DNA of 64,000 bases, taken from the NCBI RefSeq assembly GCF_900119495.1, contig NZ_LT632435.1:515963-579962 (forward strand). The letters are read 5' to 3'. This stretch comes from Arcanobacterium urinimassiliense (lineage in GTDB: Bacteria; Actinomycetota; Actinomycetes; Actinomycetales; Actinomycetaceae). Numbering within the stretch: position 1 is the stretch's first letter; the number at the start of each line of letters is the position of its first letter. The position numbers and the translations under genes are program-made. Of the stretch, positions 35,284 through 40,451 are shown piece by piece. The notes beneath the pieces are model-generated. The model ran no database searches and had not been told where the DNA came from. It saw only the letters and a list, made by a program, of their open reading frames with translations.

Positions 35284-35357
35284 TTAAAATCGGTTAACTG
35301 AAACGTTAAATTTAAAAGAGCTAATTAGAAAAGATTGGCGATATAGGGGTGTCGGTA

Positions 35358-36194
35358 ATGCGGCGAGAAGCGGGTATTAAATATTGGAATAATACGGAGA
35401 TTCTCGCTATTCGCCGAGCAGCTCTGGTAGTAGCTGATATTCATCAAGCATTGCGAGAAGCAATTCGCCCCGGTATTACAACTGGGGAACTAGACGATAT
35501 TGCGCGGGAAGTTTTAGCAGCGCACGGAGCTAAATCCAATTTTTATGGATACTACGGCTATCCGCGCCAGACCTGCATATCTATAAACGATACGGTAGTA
35601 CACGGAATTCCGGGGGAGGAAGTGCTCCAGCCGGGTGACTTAGTTTCTTTAGATTGTGGAGCTGTATTATCAGGCTGGCATGGAGATGCTTGCTTTACTA
35701 CGGTACTTCCCGGCGGCGATCCGGCGGTGCGGCAGGTGCGCTCGCAGCTTTCTGCTGTTACGGAAGAAGCTCTCTGGTACGGTATAGCCGCTATGGCGCA
35801 GGAAAAATATGTGGGTGATATCGGCCGAGCTATAGATGACTATGTGATGGATATTCCTCCTGCGGAACGCCCCGATATAGTGGAAAATTTTACTGGGCAT
35901 GGCATCGGCACAGCTATGCATATGGAGCCTACTGTGCTTAATTACCGTACTCGTGGCCGGGGCGCTCGTTTACGCCCAGGTATGGTGCTTTGCATTGAAC
36001 CAATTTTCACCGCAGGAAAGCAAGCTAATTATACGCTGAGCGATGAATGGACAGTAAAGACGCAAGATGGTTCAGATGCTTGCCACTGGGAGCATGAGGT
36101 CGCTTTACATGAGGGTGGAATCTGGGTGCTTTCTGCTCCAGATGGTGGAGCGGCAGAGCTAGCTCGGTTTGGAATCACTCCGGTTCCGCTTTAA
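35358..36194 (+). CDS. map: Methionine aminopeptidase, type I
   Basis: This metallo-peptidase removes the initiator methionine from nascent proteins. I choose ATG 35358, eight bases after AGGGG; GTG 35349 lies on that site. The 278-residue protein has the five metal ligands in context: Asp in SLDCGAVLSGWHGDACF (two), His in FTGHGIGTAMHMEP, Glu in LCIEPIF and Glu in WEHEVALH. It is 74 bases downstream of adk. infA would normally follow, but a surface-protein gene intervenes. Confidence 0.95.
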   Translation: MRREAGIKYWNNTEILAIRRAALVVADIHQALREAIRPGITTGELDDIAREVLAAHGAKSNFYGYYGYPRQTCISINDTVVHGIPGEEVLQPGDLVSLDCGAVLSGWHGDACFTTVLPGGDPAVRQVRSQLSAVTEEALWYGIAAMAQEKYVGDIGRAIDDYVMDIPPAERPDIVENFTGHGIGTAMHMEPTVLNYRTRGRGARLRPGMVLCIEPIFTAGKQANYTLSDEWTVKTQDGSDACHWEHEVALHEGGIWVLSAPDGGAAELARFGITPVPL

Positions 36195-36459
36195 TTTCGA
36201 GGAGATCAGCACTTCTATATTTTCTATATTTCGCGAAGCACAGGTATTTCGCGATGTACGAACTTTTCGTGGCAGTTTTGTCGGTTTACTTTCCTTTATT
36301 TTTATCTTGGGCTTTAGTCCTAAATGAGTATTTACTCGTGGGGTAATTCATTAGGCTAGAAGCTCTAAATTAAAGACTTTTCCGCCCGTTATCAGAGTTT
36401 TTATTATGCTGATAGGGATAGAAGAACTTTACTTACAATAAGGTAGGCAAGAAAGTACT
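36195..36459 (+). promoter_or_regulatory. Upstream region of the surface protein gene
   Basis: This 265-base gap is AT-rich. GAGTA (36326-36330) and TACTC (36333-36337) form a short palindrome, and ACAATAAGGTAGGCAAGAAAG just before the gene contains AAGG/AAGAAAG that could serve as ribosome site. No clear -35/-10 pair is visible. It probably carries the promoter of the next gene. Confidence 0.35.
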
Positions 36460-39400
36460 ATGAGAACCTCATCCAAAAAAGCCGGAGCTGTAGCAGCAGT
36501 CGCAGCGCTCACTATTACCGCTCCCGTAGCTATGGCAGATTCGGAAGTTCCCGTTGTAACCAATGAAAATGAAGGAAATGCTCAGCAGACCGTTGATCCG
36601 GCAGCGGAATCAAAGCAAGAGCTAGAAGCTGCTAAGCAAGACGCCGCTCGGGCGCAATCCGATTTTGATGCAAAGAAGCAGGAAGAAGCAGAGGCCGCCA
36701 AAGCAGCTAAACAGCTGCAAGATGATGCGGCTGCGGCGCAAGATAAGGCTAAGAAAAGCGAATCTGCTGCTGTAACTGCTTTGACGCAGGCGCAGGCAGA
36801 TAGTAAGCAGAAAGCCACGGCAGCTGCGCAGAAAGAAGCAGCTACTCGCAGTGCTTTAGAAAGCGCACAGAAAGCTAAAGAGGCAGCTAGTGAGCAAGTA
36901 GATAAGGCGAGCCAAGCCAAGGAAACGGCAGCAAATGAGTTAGCTGCTAATCCAGCTGTAGATGAGGGGAAAATTACCCAGGCCAAAGAAGAAGTAGCTA
37001 AAGCAGAGCAGGCGAAAGCTGATGCAGAAGCTACTCAGAAGCAGGCGGCAGATAAACTAACGCAGCTGCAGAAGGATGCAGCTGCGCAGGCAGAGGCGAG
37101 TAGCCAAGCCGATAAGGATCTGCAAGCTGCCAAGCAAACTCAGGATGCGGCAGATAAGGCTGTGCAAACTGCTCAGAAAAAGGTGGAAGATCTTACCGCG
37201 CAGGTAGCGCAGTTGGAAAGTAGCGCTGGAGCTGCATTACAGCAGGCACAAGCTGAACTGAGTGAAGCACAGAAGCAACTTGCCCAGGCACAAGAAGCTG
37301 AGAAGCAGGCGAAAGCAGACCTAGCTACTTTAAATGAGAAAGCTAGCGCGGCAAAGGCAGATTTAGAGCAGGCTAAGCAGGCGGAAGCAGCGGCGCGCGC
37401 TCAACTTGCCGAGCTGCAAAAGCAGCAGGAAGAAGCGAAAGCTAAACTGGAAGCAGCTACCTCCAAGCGAGATGCTTTACAGGCTAGCTTAGCGGCGGCC
37501 CGGGCTAAAGATGCGGAAGCTAAGCAAAAGGCACAAAATGCGGGCACCACATTAGCGGCGGCGCAGGAAGCTAAGAACGCAGCAGATGCTGCCGTCGCTG
37601 CGGCGGAGCAGCGCGTAGCGGCGGCGAAAGCGGCTGTGGATAACGATACCAGCAAGGCAGATGCCCAAAAACAGTGGGATCGCGGAGCTGCGGGCTTTTA
37701 CGAGGCAATGGGCTCCCAAGAGGCCCTGGAAGTATTAACCAAACCGCAGGGAGTCCACGCTGAGTATAATCCACAAATTTTTGGGAATGATGACGCGCGT
37801 ACTTTGGAGAATATGAAGTTCTCTCTCGAACAAATAGCGGAAATAAATGCTAAGCGGCAAAGGGATGGCGGTATTGATGGCCGCAAGCTTTCCTTGCTGC
37901 AAATTGATGACTATTCCATGGCTATAGCACAAGCAAATGCCAATTACTCTTCGAAGCGTGGTGGGCACTCGCGAGTTTATAGAGATCACTATGAGAATCT
38001 GTTTAGCGCTGCATCTAGTAGTCCTTCTTACAAGCCGACTTCGAAAGACGCTTTAAAAGGTTGGTGGGATGAAGAAAAAGTATTATTTGATAAGTTGCGC
38101 GCCCAAGGAGCAACTAGCCGGAAGCAGATGGACGACATAATTAAGAATGATCCGAATTTGGCAGGGAGAGCAGCCGTAGGGCACTATACCAATCTGGTGG
38201 ATGATCTGATGTGGGGAGATTCCCGCATGTCAGGGCCATATGTAGAAGATAGTAAGGTTATTGGATACGCAGCTCGTTCAGCCGAAACATACAAGGATCC
38301 TCGGATTAAATCTCAATTTGTACATTCGATGGTGCTGAGCTCTAATGTGAAGGGTAAAAGTTTCTCAGTTGAAGAATACACTGCCCGCTTCATGGCATAT
38401 TACAATGATTTGCTGGCGAAGAAGTCGGGCGGAGATCCGCAAGTGCAGCAGGAATATGAGGCGGCACTAAAGGCTTTAGAAACAGCTAAGACGGAGCAAA
38501 GTACGGCGGCGGCCACCTTGGCGGCCCGGCAGAGTGAAAAGAATGCGGCAGATGCTGCCGCAGCTACAGCTGCGCAAACTCTGCAAAAGAATGAAGAAGA
38601 TTTGCGAGTAGCGGAAGCTGCTATTGCCACTGCCCGGGAGGCACAGACGCAGGCGGAAGCTGCCGTCCAGGCGCAGCAGCCGGTAGTTGCTGCGGCCAGT
38701 CAGGCGGTTACGGATAAACAAACCGCAAAGAATGATGCTGATTCTGCTGCCGCTGCAGCACAAGAATTGGTGAATAAAGCAGCAGCAGCTGTGCAGAGCA
38801 AGCAGGCTTTGGTAGATGAAAAAACCAAGGTGATAGAGAACATTGAAGGCGGCACTGCATTGCGGGACGCCAAGGCAAATTTGGAGACTGCGAAAGCAGA
38901 TTTAGCGCAGGCGCAGGCTAAACAGCAGGACGCAATCGCTAAAGTAGAAGATGCCAAGGCGAAGGCGCAGAAAGCCACTGCCGCTAAGGAACAGGCAGCT
39001 GCGGCAGTTCAAACGGCGCAAACGGATGTAAATACTGCACAAGCTGCGGTAGAGCAGGCGGCCAGTCGGTTGCAAGCGGCCCAAGCCCAGTTGACGCCTT
39101 TGCAAGAAGCTCAGGCTAAGCACGAAAAGGCCTTGGCAGCTGTAACAAGCGCAGATGAAGCCCTACAAAAGGCCCAAGCTCAGTTGCAGGCAGCAAAAGA
39201 TGATATTTCGAAGCAAGAAGCGGCAGTTGCTAGTGCACAGCAGGAAGCTCAGGCGGCGAATGCGCGCGCGGAGTACTTGGCAGCGGTAGATTCTGCGGCA
39301 GCTTTACAAAACGGGATGCCAACCGATAATGCGCACTTAAATGCCTACGATTTACCGGCGAAGTTCAATATTGTGCGTAGCGCACAAGAAGCGGCTGCTA

Positions 39401-39966
39401 AGGCCGCAGAAGCTGCTCAGAAAGCACAAGAAAAACTGCAGGTAAAGCAGGAAGAAGTAGCTACTGCGCAGAAACTCTTGCATCAGGCGCAAACGGCACT
39501 GCAAGCAGCGCAGCAACATTATAATGAGTTACATCCGGTAAATATCACGCTTTCTGCCACCCAGATACAGCAGGGAAGTACGATGCTGTTTACTGTCGGC
39601 GGGTTCGATGCCGGTGAACAGGTAGATTTCCATGTGCGTTCTGAGGTTGTCTATGCTGGGCGGGTTGTAGCCGGTGCGGACGGCATGGCGCGTATTGCTT
39701 GGAAGGTTCCAGCCAATTTTGCGCTCGGAAAGCATACGGTAACTGCAACTGGAAAAGAAACTGGCCGGGCCATTAGTAAAGAATTTACCGTGATTGCTGC
39801 TGCAGCTAATGCTTCTGTGGCGGTAGCGCCGGTGAATTCCGCTGATCCGGCAGCGACTAAGCCACTTGCTCAAACTGGTTTCCTTGGATCAGAGTTAGCT
39901 GGTGCGGCACTGATTGCGCTAGCTGGTGGAGCAATGCTGGCAAGGCGCGGCAAGCATCATGCGTAA
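36460..39966 (+). CDS. Sortase-anchored coiled-coil surface protein with SEC10/PgrA-like domain
   Basis: This 1168-residue secreted wall protein has a signal peptide (residues 1-26, cleavage after APVAMA). A first Ala/Gln/Lys/Glu coiled coil covers about 45-400. A globular domain lies at about 406-655, then a second coiled coil at about 660-1020, an Ig-like domain at about 1025-1120, and a sorting signal with LAQTG at 1136-1140, a hydrophobic span and ARRGKHHA. The globular domain has GFYEAMGSQEAL, TLENMKFSLEQIAEINAKR, YSMAIAQANANYSS and GHYTNLVDD. These resemble the SEC10/PgrA surface-exclusion domain, a CAP-like fold known from conjugative plasmids. LAXTG suits a class E sortase. I see no cysteine. 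The ligand is unknown; adhesion or surface exclusion are inferences. It sits between map and infA. Confidence 0.82.
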   Translation: MRTSSKKAGAVAAVAALTITAPVAMADSEVPVVTNENEGNAQQTVDPAAESKQELEAAKQDAARAQSDFDAKKQEEAEAAKAAKQLQDDAAAAQDKAKKSESAAVTALTQAQADSKQKATAAAQKEAATRSALESAQKAKEAASEQVDKASQAKETAANELAANPAVDEGKITQAKEEVAKAEQAKADAEATQKQAADKLTQLQKDAAAQAEASSQADKDLQAAKQTQDAADKAVQTAQKKVEDLTAQVAQLESSAGAALQQAQAELSEAQKQLAQAQEAEKQAKADLATLNEKASAAKADLEQAKQAEAAARAQLAELQKQQEEAKAKLEAATSKRDALQASLAAARAKDAEAKQKAQNAGTTLAAAQEAKNAADAAVAAAEQRVAAAKAAVDNDTSKADAQKQWDRGAAGFYEAMGSQEALEVLTKPQGVHAEYNPQIFGNDDARTLENMKFSLEQIAEINAKRQRDGGIDGRKLSLLQIDDYSMAIAQANANYSSKRGGHSRVYRDHYENLFSAASSSPSYKPTSKDALKGWWDEEKVLFDKLRAQGATSRKQMDDIIKNDPNLAGRAAVGHYTNLVDDLMWGDSRMSGPYVEDSKVIGYAARSAETYKDPRIKSQFVHSMVLSSNVKGKSFSVEEYTARFMAYYNDLLAKKSGGDPQVQQEYEAALKALETAKTEQSTAAATLAARQSEKNAADAAAATAAQTLQKNEEDLRVAEAAIATAREAQTQAEAAVQAQQPVVAAASQAVTDKQTAKNDADSAAAAAQELVNKAAAAVQSKQALVDEKTKVIENIEGGTALRDAKANLETAKADLAQAQAKQQDAIAKVEDAKAKAQKATAAKEQAAAAVQTAQTDVNTAQAAVEQAASRLQAAQAQLTPLQEAQAKHEKALAAVTSADEALQKAQAQLQAAKDDISKQEAAVASAQQEAQAANARAEYLAAVDSAAALQNGMPTDNAHLNAYDLPAKFNIVRSAQEAAAKAAEAAQKAQEKLQVKQEEVATAQKLLHQAQTALQAAQQHYNELHPVNITLSATQIQQGSTMLFTVGGFDAGEQVDFHVRSEVVYAGRVVAGADGMARIAWKVPANFALGKHTVTATGKETGRAISKEFTVIAAAANASVAVAPVNSADPAATKPLAQTGFLGSELAGAALIALAGGAMLARRGKHHA

Positions 39967-40001
39967 GTAAATAGCTTAGCGGAAACTAGTGAACTGCTAG
40001 C

Positions 40002-40060
40002 TGCGGGGTCAGGTAAAGCCAGAAGTAATTGAGGCGGCGTCTGGCCCCGCAACTTTTTAT
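40002..40060 (+). terminator. Terminator after the surface protein gene
   Basis: TGCGGGGTCAG (40002-40012) pairs with CTGGCCCCGCA (40041-40051) over 11 bp with one G-T pair, followed by ACTTTTTATT. The gene is therefore probably its own transcription unit. Confidence 0.8.
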
Positions 40061-40229
40061 TAAGGTGGATTCGGCTATTTGGCGTGATGAGATACACCTC
40101 TTTTCGCCTTTATTTTCCAGCATTTTTTCGGCTAGACTGGAGCATTGGCGCATCTGTATTTAGGCAGTTGTGCATGAGCGGTAGCATTAGCTGCAGTTCA
40201 GAGAAAAAGATAGGAAGTAAGCGGGAAAT

Positions 40230-40451
40230 ATGGCGAAAAAAGAAGGCGTCATCGAAGTAGAAGGCACAGTGCTGGAAGCACTGCCGAATGCGATGTTTCA
40301 GGTGGAGTTGGAGAACGGGCACGTGGTGCTCGCCCACATCTCCGGTAAGATGCGTCAGCACTACATCAAGATCCTTCCGGAAGATCGAGTGGTAGTAGAA
40401 CTTACTCCTTACGATCTTAATCGTGGCCGCATTGTTTACCGATATAAGTAA
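40230..40451 (+). CDS. infA: Translation initiation factor IF-1
   Basis: This 73-residue OB-fold protein blocks the ribosomal A site during initiation. [20 protein letters not shown] and [19 protein letters not shown] are diagnostic; the end [11 protein letters not shown] is typical. AAGCGGGAAAT precedes the ATG. It leads the infA-rpmJ-rpsM-rpsK-rpoA-rplQ run, whose promoter must lie in the 170 bases after the terminator; TAGACT near 40133 is a weak -10 candidate. Confidence 0.98.

Follow-up and report, generated by a model that had tools for sequence, protein, structure and literature searches.

The window analyzed here, a 64,000-nucleotide stretch of the Arcanobacterium urinimassiliense genome (contig NZ_LT632435.1, positions 515,963 to 579,962), carries an open reading frame (ORF) with an ATG start (36460..39966, + strand), flanked by map and infA, whose 1168-residue product is a wall protein of an already known kind, a CAP domain on a predicted stalk, at an unusual genomic address. 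The protein shares the building plan of PrgA, the surface-exclusion protein of plasmid pCF10, and falls below the cut-off of the curated SEC10/PgrA model. The parts of the chain, the CAP fold with its conserved site, a terminator-like hairpin, a class E sortase gene and the occupancy of the map-infA joint in relatives were all computed, and on this basis we lean, with modest confidence, toward a sortase-anchored, lollipop-shaped contact or adhesion protein whose gene is its own unit and an old resident of the joint. This is not a chance ORF, because relatives in other genomes align along most of its length; the source genome consists of two contigs (1.68 Mb, 98% complete).

Sequence profiles and structure prediction place the central domain in the CAP superfamily, with a predicted CAP fold. 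Searched with the full-length chain, Pfam returned no family; PF00188 (cut-off of 21.1 bits) was matched by residues 381-667 at 26.6 bits, by residues 396-670 at 27.3 bits, and at 28.3 bits in a six-frame scan of the genome, in which this domain was the single CAP match found. Three alignments of relatives were used: A1 (15 members), A2 (29), and A3 (14 rows, full length). PF00188 was matched by 9/15 A1 members, and the A1 profile, compared with solved CAP proteins, reached GAPR-1 at E 4.8e-5. An AlphaFold2 (AF2) model of the domain built from A2 has a predicted local distance difference test score (pLDDT) of 86.3 and a predicted template modeling score (pTM) of 0.88. Its top Foldseek matches are CAP structures (probability 1.00, best E 1.0e-3, and no match under E 0.001), with Zn- and Co-bound CAP structures among the fold matches, and the top of the VIA comparison is likewise made up of CAP folds (Ves v 5, Z 11.1; GAPR-1, Z 10.7). 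A PDB sequence search with the central domain alone gave no match at E up to 1. Moreover, every row of A2 (29 rows, two phyla) and of A3 (14 rows) has H503, E512, E539, and H575, which coincide with GAPR-1 positions in the profile alignment; we take this His/Glu/Glu/His quartet to constitute the CAP site. The fold and the His/Glu residues are held in common with GAPR-1, PR-1, Ves v 5, and Pry1 of the same superfamily (PF00188), whereas those are small separate proteins and the domain in the window lies between two coils of a wall-anchored chain.

The chain is made up of the following parts:
36460..36537 (+), signal-peptide-like N terminus, residues 1-26, ending ...APVAMA-D (translation by eye, no predictor)
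36613..37641 (+), outgoing Ala-rich helix, residues 52-394, with breaks near 163-170 and 252-258 (AF2 full-length model, low confidence)
37651..38430 (+), CAP domain, about residues 398-657, with H503, E512, E539, and H575 (PF00188, AF2 model, and PDB folds)
38437..39528 (+), returning Ala-rich helix, residues 660-1023, with a hinge near 945-966 (AF2 model)
39541..39795 (+), Ig-like beta domain, residues 1028-1112, eight strands (AF2 model)
39865..39963 (+), LAQTG sorting signal, residues 1136-1168, with a hydrophobic stretch and then RRGKHHA (sequence, by eye)

The preliminary description of this DNA had given the ORF its position and length and had assigned to it two helical coils, an Ig-like domain, and LAQTG; the ORF list bears out the former, and the parts were found again in the low-confidence AF2 full-length model and, for the anchor, by eye. 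Residues 45-394 contain 117 A, 2 P, and 3 G. The helix segments flanking the CAP domain are of similar length (137 residues, 258-394, versus 134, 660-793), as expected of an antiparallel hairpin, and the outer breaks mirror each other less well in the full-length model (163-170 versus 950-965). The hinge of the returning helix is common to the same-joint copy of another genus (G125) and to some Varibaculum copies. The Ig-like domain (1028-1112) has no Pfam match, and the module from about residue 1025 onward recurs in many Actinomycetaceae wall proteins. As for anchoring, an LxxTG motif, a hydrophobic stretch, a basic tail, and a sortase in the genome are all present. The genome holds one class C sortase and one class E sortase, the latter at 218.1 bits (cut-off of 160), and LAXTG is the motif accepted by class E sortases. 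A scan of the genome with the LPXTG model TIGR01167 gave 10 matches, the wall protein not among them. The same genome also has a pilus-type cluster (L127:165-3184) with an LPLTG protein, a class C sortase, and an LGKTG protein, read by eye save for the sortase.

PrgA (Sea1) of pCF10 (L125) matches TIGR04320 at 237.6 bits along residues 280-636, and its central part has been solved under the PDB title "CAP domain of Enterococcal PrgA" (6z9l, 6z9k). Since the central domain of PrgA is also a CAP domain, the plan of the wall protein (long coil, CAP, long coil, sortase anchor, the coils taken from the low-confidence model and the anchor read by eye) is PrgA-like. The CAP model aligns with 6z9l at Z 8.2 (140 residues, root mean square deviation of 3.8, 16% identity) and with 6z9k at Z 7.9, values of about 8 that are middling and below those to GAPR-1 and Ves v 5; identity over the aligned fold is 15-16%. 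The link to PrgA is one of fold and layout, because neither the sequence model nor the Foldseek list shows it: PrgA is not among the best 50 of 110 Foldseek matches and appeared only in the VIA comparison. Membership in SEC10/PgrA was considered and rejected, as TIGR04320 gives the wall protein 20.1 bits against a cut-off of 70, with its best stretch in the coil, and does not match the central domain alone. Hence, the likeness to a surface-exclusion domain that had been read from the sequence holds for the CAP domain, which PF00188 recognizes, and for the layout, and is not borne out by the curated exclusion model. Direct BLAST against PrgA is weak (28.1 bits, E 0.003, mostly coil), profile comparison gives a probability of 10% (E 0.003), and TIGR04320 reaches 21.0-31.0 bits in five distinct proteins among the relatives, with none listed for L031 and L036. 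The two proteins differ also in that PrgA is plasmid-borne, adjoins the aggregation substance gene prgB, and ends in an LPQTG anchor, whereas the wall protein is chromosomal, lies between map and infA, and has LAQTG plus an Ig-like domain. Among plasmids, the central domain retrieved five records (three Bifidobacterium, two Collinsella), all classed as non-mobilizable and none of them PrgA.

Relatives of the domain are distributed well beyond this site. The CAP profile A2 matches 35/151 family genomes at E 0.001 and 31/213 at 1e-20. For 26 of these 31 strong-match genomes, which are in the distance sample described below, coordinates put the CAP matches away from map save in the window, in a second Arcanobacterium (G004), and in G125; the fetched flanks of the remaining 5 show neither infA nor a close map, one having a 36% map-like gene and one lying on a contig that stops shortly past the gene. 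In a named collection, 77 stretches fit the pattern and 32 were confirmed, among Varibaculum, Actinotignum, Mobiluncus, Actinomyces, Cutibacterium, Bifidobacterium, Coriobacteriaceae, several Bacillota, and Anaerococcus, with five Anaerococcus loci at 39-44% identity. The loci of Anaerococcus (L095, L097, L098, L100, L101) and Actinomyces (L094) and L093 (probably Varibaculum) have the same layout, with CAP domains 39-50% identical, and the coil-CAP-coil relatives elsewhere occupy genomic sites other than map-infA. When 65 loci, many with flanks of only 1.5 kb, were tested for secY, map, infA, rpsM, rplO, and rpoA, only L096, the Arcanobacterium sp. S3PF19 copy, whose gene equals that of G004 in size, had them, and L146 had a 36% map-like gene. 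L093 is titled Tissierella sp. Marseille-P2918; its gene agrees with the G074 gene of Actinomycetaceae in length, motif place, and C terminus, and the title is doubtful because the two genes look identical. Within a limited literature collection, we met no paper whose title or abstract dealt with wall proteins bearing a CAP domain in Arcanobacterium.

The setting of the gene is as follows:
35349..36194 (+), map (methionine aminopeptidase), upstream neighbor (ORF; match in 150/151 family genomes)
36195..36459 (+), AT-rich spacer of 265 bp before the wall-protein gene (sequence; GC 0.366)
36460..39966 (+), wall-protein gene, 1168 residues (ORF; relatives similar across most of its length)
39999..40060 (+), terminator-like hairpin and T run 3' of the gene (-29.2 kcal/mol, z -2.8, 2/200 shuffles fold as well)
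40084..40138 (+), pre-infA conserved region with a GTGA-N7-CAC word and a TAGACT -10-like box (by eye; a putative promoter)
40230..40451 (+), infA, downstream neighbor (ORF; match in 149/151 family genomes)

The available part of a study treating Gammaproteobacteria and Bacilli (PMC8046335) counts adk, map, and infA as members of the ancestral proteobacterial spc operon. We sought map and infA in 151 Actinomycetaceae genomes, of which 139 could be measured (both genes on one contig and strand, among the matches listed); of the other 12, 6 had the genes on different contigs or strands, 4 had no map among the matches listed, and 2 had no infA match. The distance between the two genes was at most 300 bp in 80 genomes, 301-600 bp in 14, 601-1500 bp in 11, 1501-5000 bp in 13, and more than 5000 bp in 21, so that 34/139 gaps exceed 1.5 kb. 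Full-length CAP relatives occupy the joint in 3/139 genomes (window, G004, and G125). For Arcanobacterium, 9/10 genomes were measured, G005 being outside the count with map and infA on different contigs; the CAP gene is at the joint in two of them, and the other seven gaps span 184-1082 bp. A genome of a third genus (G159) has at map-infA a 271-residue LANTG protein with 42% identity to the Ig and anchor part of the wall protein. The contents of wide gaps elsewhere, as far as their ORFs were read (in part and by eye, with family searches on a few), look mutually unrelated. In one other genus, the four genomes fetched (G103, G080, G029, and G120; L058-L061) all carry a like gene pair (221-226 and 749-895 residues) between map and infA, a further case of stable occupancy at this position. 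The map-infA joint is permissive, which makes the placement less startling than first stated: the gene does lie between map and infA, inside a gene order described at first as highly conserved, yet the joint is frequently wide across the family, and the possibility that the same gene sits there in nearly all relatives as an ordinary fixture does not apply.

The wall-protein gene is probably its own transcription unit. Hairpins lie 3' of the gene in 3/3 same-joint copies (G004, -57.4 kcal/mol, z -9.5; G125, -38.6 kcal/mol, z -5.4; besides that of the window), followed by a T run in the window and G004, and G004 has a further one between map and the gene (-20.7 kcal/mol, z -3.5); folding covered four stretches, chosen by eye. 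On the infA side, the pre-infA elements look similar by eye in relatives with and without the insert. GTGA-N7-CAC precedes infA in 8/9 readable stretches (not in G001; the nine exclude G005 and the longer gap of G003), with a TAGAAT-like box in most, and in the window this near-palindrome (40084-40097) stands before the -10-like box. The word is CRP/GlxR-like; alone it proves little, because the window holds 9 instances of it, spread over both strands. The insert would thus leave the promoter of infA untouched, and the wall-protein gene would have one of its own.

We propose the following model. After export and removal of the signal peptide, the class E sortase would cleave at LAQTG, leaving the protein joined to the wall by its C terminus. 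Closest to the wall would be the Ig-like domain, with the two long Ala-rich helices running out and back as one antiparallel stalk that would present the CAP domain and its four-residue His/Glu site tens of nanometers from the cell, where it may bind, and possibly cut, a partner carried by a host surface or by a neighboring cell. The gene, which separates the secY-adk-map run from the infA-rpsM run, would be expressed as its own transcription unit. An adhesive role is supported by the placing of the SEC10/PgrA domain in adhesins such as SpyAD in the accessible portion of PMC4667477, a likeness by domain naming in that source.

Several points weigh against this reading. The full-length AF2 model is of low confidence (pLDDT 62.5, pTM 0.33), so that the hairpin stalk is drawn from the layout and from analogy with PrgA, and TIGR01167 gives the wall protein 11.9 bits, below its cut-off of 15.9. 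The invariance of H575 is partly by construction because the rows of A1 and A2 were selected via the GHY motif, H503 and E512 are conserved in at least 90% of the A1 rows and not in all, and any binding or enzyme activity is putative. Regarding transcription, the G125 hairpin has no T run; a terminator pattern scan found no + strand site directly after the window gene, having missed the hairpin probably because its loop is long; and the 12 terminator-like sites of the region do not clearly exceed the 7.6 of shuffles (standard deviation of 2.7). A sigma-70-type consensus scan gave no promoter ahead of either the wall-protein gene or infA, with 2 sites in all against 5.5 in shuffles. Concerning age, the three same-joint copies do not group in CAP trees, and approximately unbiased (AU) tests neither reject nor show a single clade (P of 0.10 for the three copies, 0.31 for the window with G004, and 0.08 for the window with G125). 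Moreover, the G004 copy has no hinge or Ig match, and the hinge is found also in Varibaculum copies at other sites.

These last observations bear on the best-surviving alternative, in which each carrier acquired the gene at the joint separately and in recent times, through a surface-protein cassette that moves or recombines, an account that we judge unlikely but to be taken seriously. Besides the ungrouped copies, it gains from the nesting of the Anaerococcus (Bacillota) CAP relatives within the same group and from the nearest CAP by identity being L093, at another site. It is opposed by the GC content at third codon positions (GC3) of the gene, 0.448, inside the range of the neighboring genes (0.409-0.575), and by the direct repeats, where no family among the 20 listed (of 35) links one spacer with the other. 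The window and G125 copies are 37% identical over the coil-CAP part and 41% over the hinge, Ig, and anchor. Among 149 loci, some overlapping, G125 is the best match for both the hinge and the Ig-anchor part, which also argues against separate recent insertions; the next genome for the Ig-anchor part is G159, and both of these top genomes carry it at the map-infA joint. The species tree leaves the branching of the window relative to G004 without resolution. At low certainty, we regard the gene as an old, often lost or remodeled resident of the joint.

We hold it rather improbable that the CAP domain acts on the own surface of the cell as an enzyme or a lipid or metal binder, for example by clipping other wall proteins or binding lipids, with no contact role. 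The invariance of its His/Glu site in the 29 rows of two phyla (chosen via the GHY motif) and the metal-bound structures among its fold matches would suit such a function, but stalk arms of about 350 residues each would, in the model, place the domain far from its own envelope. To our knowledge, many CAP proteins with the His/Glu site have no proven enzyme activity, which counts further against this explanation.

Contact or adhesion is likelier than exclusion. That the protein is a chromosomal surface-exclusion factor, holding out its CAP domain so that mating aggregates are blocked or clipped and the entry of conjugative elements is limited, is very improbable in our view: the PrgA-like layout and fold, the TIGR04320 alignments that span the GHY motif of three relatives (L002, L032/L093, and L094), and the part of PMC10588982 available, which describes PrgA as a conjugation regulator that confers surface exclusion and whose protease domain, carried on a stalk of about 40 nm, likely cleaves PrgB, are set against the poor TIGR04320, BLAST, and profile scores given above and against a genome with neither a PF02534 coupling protein nor a PF03432 relaxase, two absences that weaken exclusion and are compatible with other transfer systems, which were not searched, or with exclusion of incoming elements. 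The exclusion and mating-control roles first entertained are therefore unsupported, and adhesion, named alongside them, is the likelier of the three.

Other wall proteins are found in the ribosomal cluster of Arcanobacterium. Differing ones lie at map-infA in 2 genomes, at adk-map in 2, and just upstream of secY in 3, in total 7/10 genomes. The secY-upstream wall protein (G009, L087:73-2703; G008, L089:4024-6435; G007, L088:4062-4469), different from that of the window, has TSP3 repeats in G008 and G009 and LAKTG in all three, G007 being read in part; its other neighbor would be rplO, and the three genomes are close relatives. At adk-map, G002 (L092:5167-8567) and G003 (L130:1379-4742) have an LPKTG/LSKTG wall protein together with a protein of 325-342 residues, for which the G002 representative had no Pfam match. 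Of 86 matches that an anchor scan returned across 10 genomes, 5 lie in this part of the cluster, from which no enrichment is claimed; the scan overlooked the genes of the window and of G003, both found by eye. The placements reflect about three or four separate events. A speculative suggestion, to which we attach little probability, is that ribosomal-cluster joints are landing or exchange sites for wall proteins, where homology of the near-universal flanking genes would allow swaps between lineages and the strongly expressed surroundings would keep the incomers switched on.

Our study corrects, for the Actinomycetaceae, the idea of an untouchable map-infA joint. PrgA-like wall proteins presenting a CAP domain on a stalk are not tied to conjugative plasmids and are spread through Actinomycetaceae and Anaerococcus with the CAP site well kept, and a general contact role of bacterial CAP domains thereby becomes easier to test.

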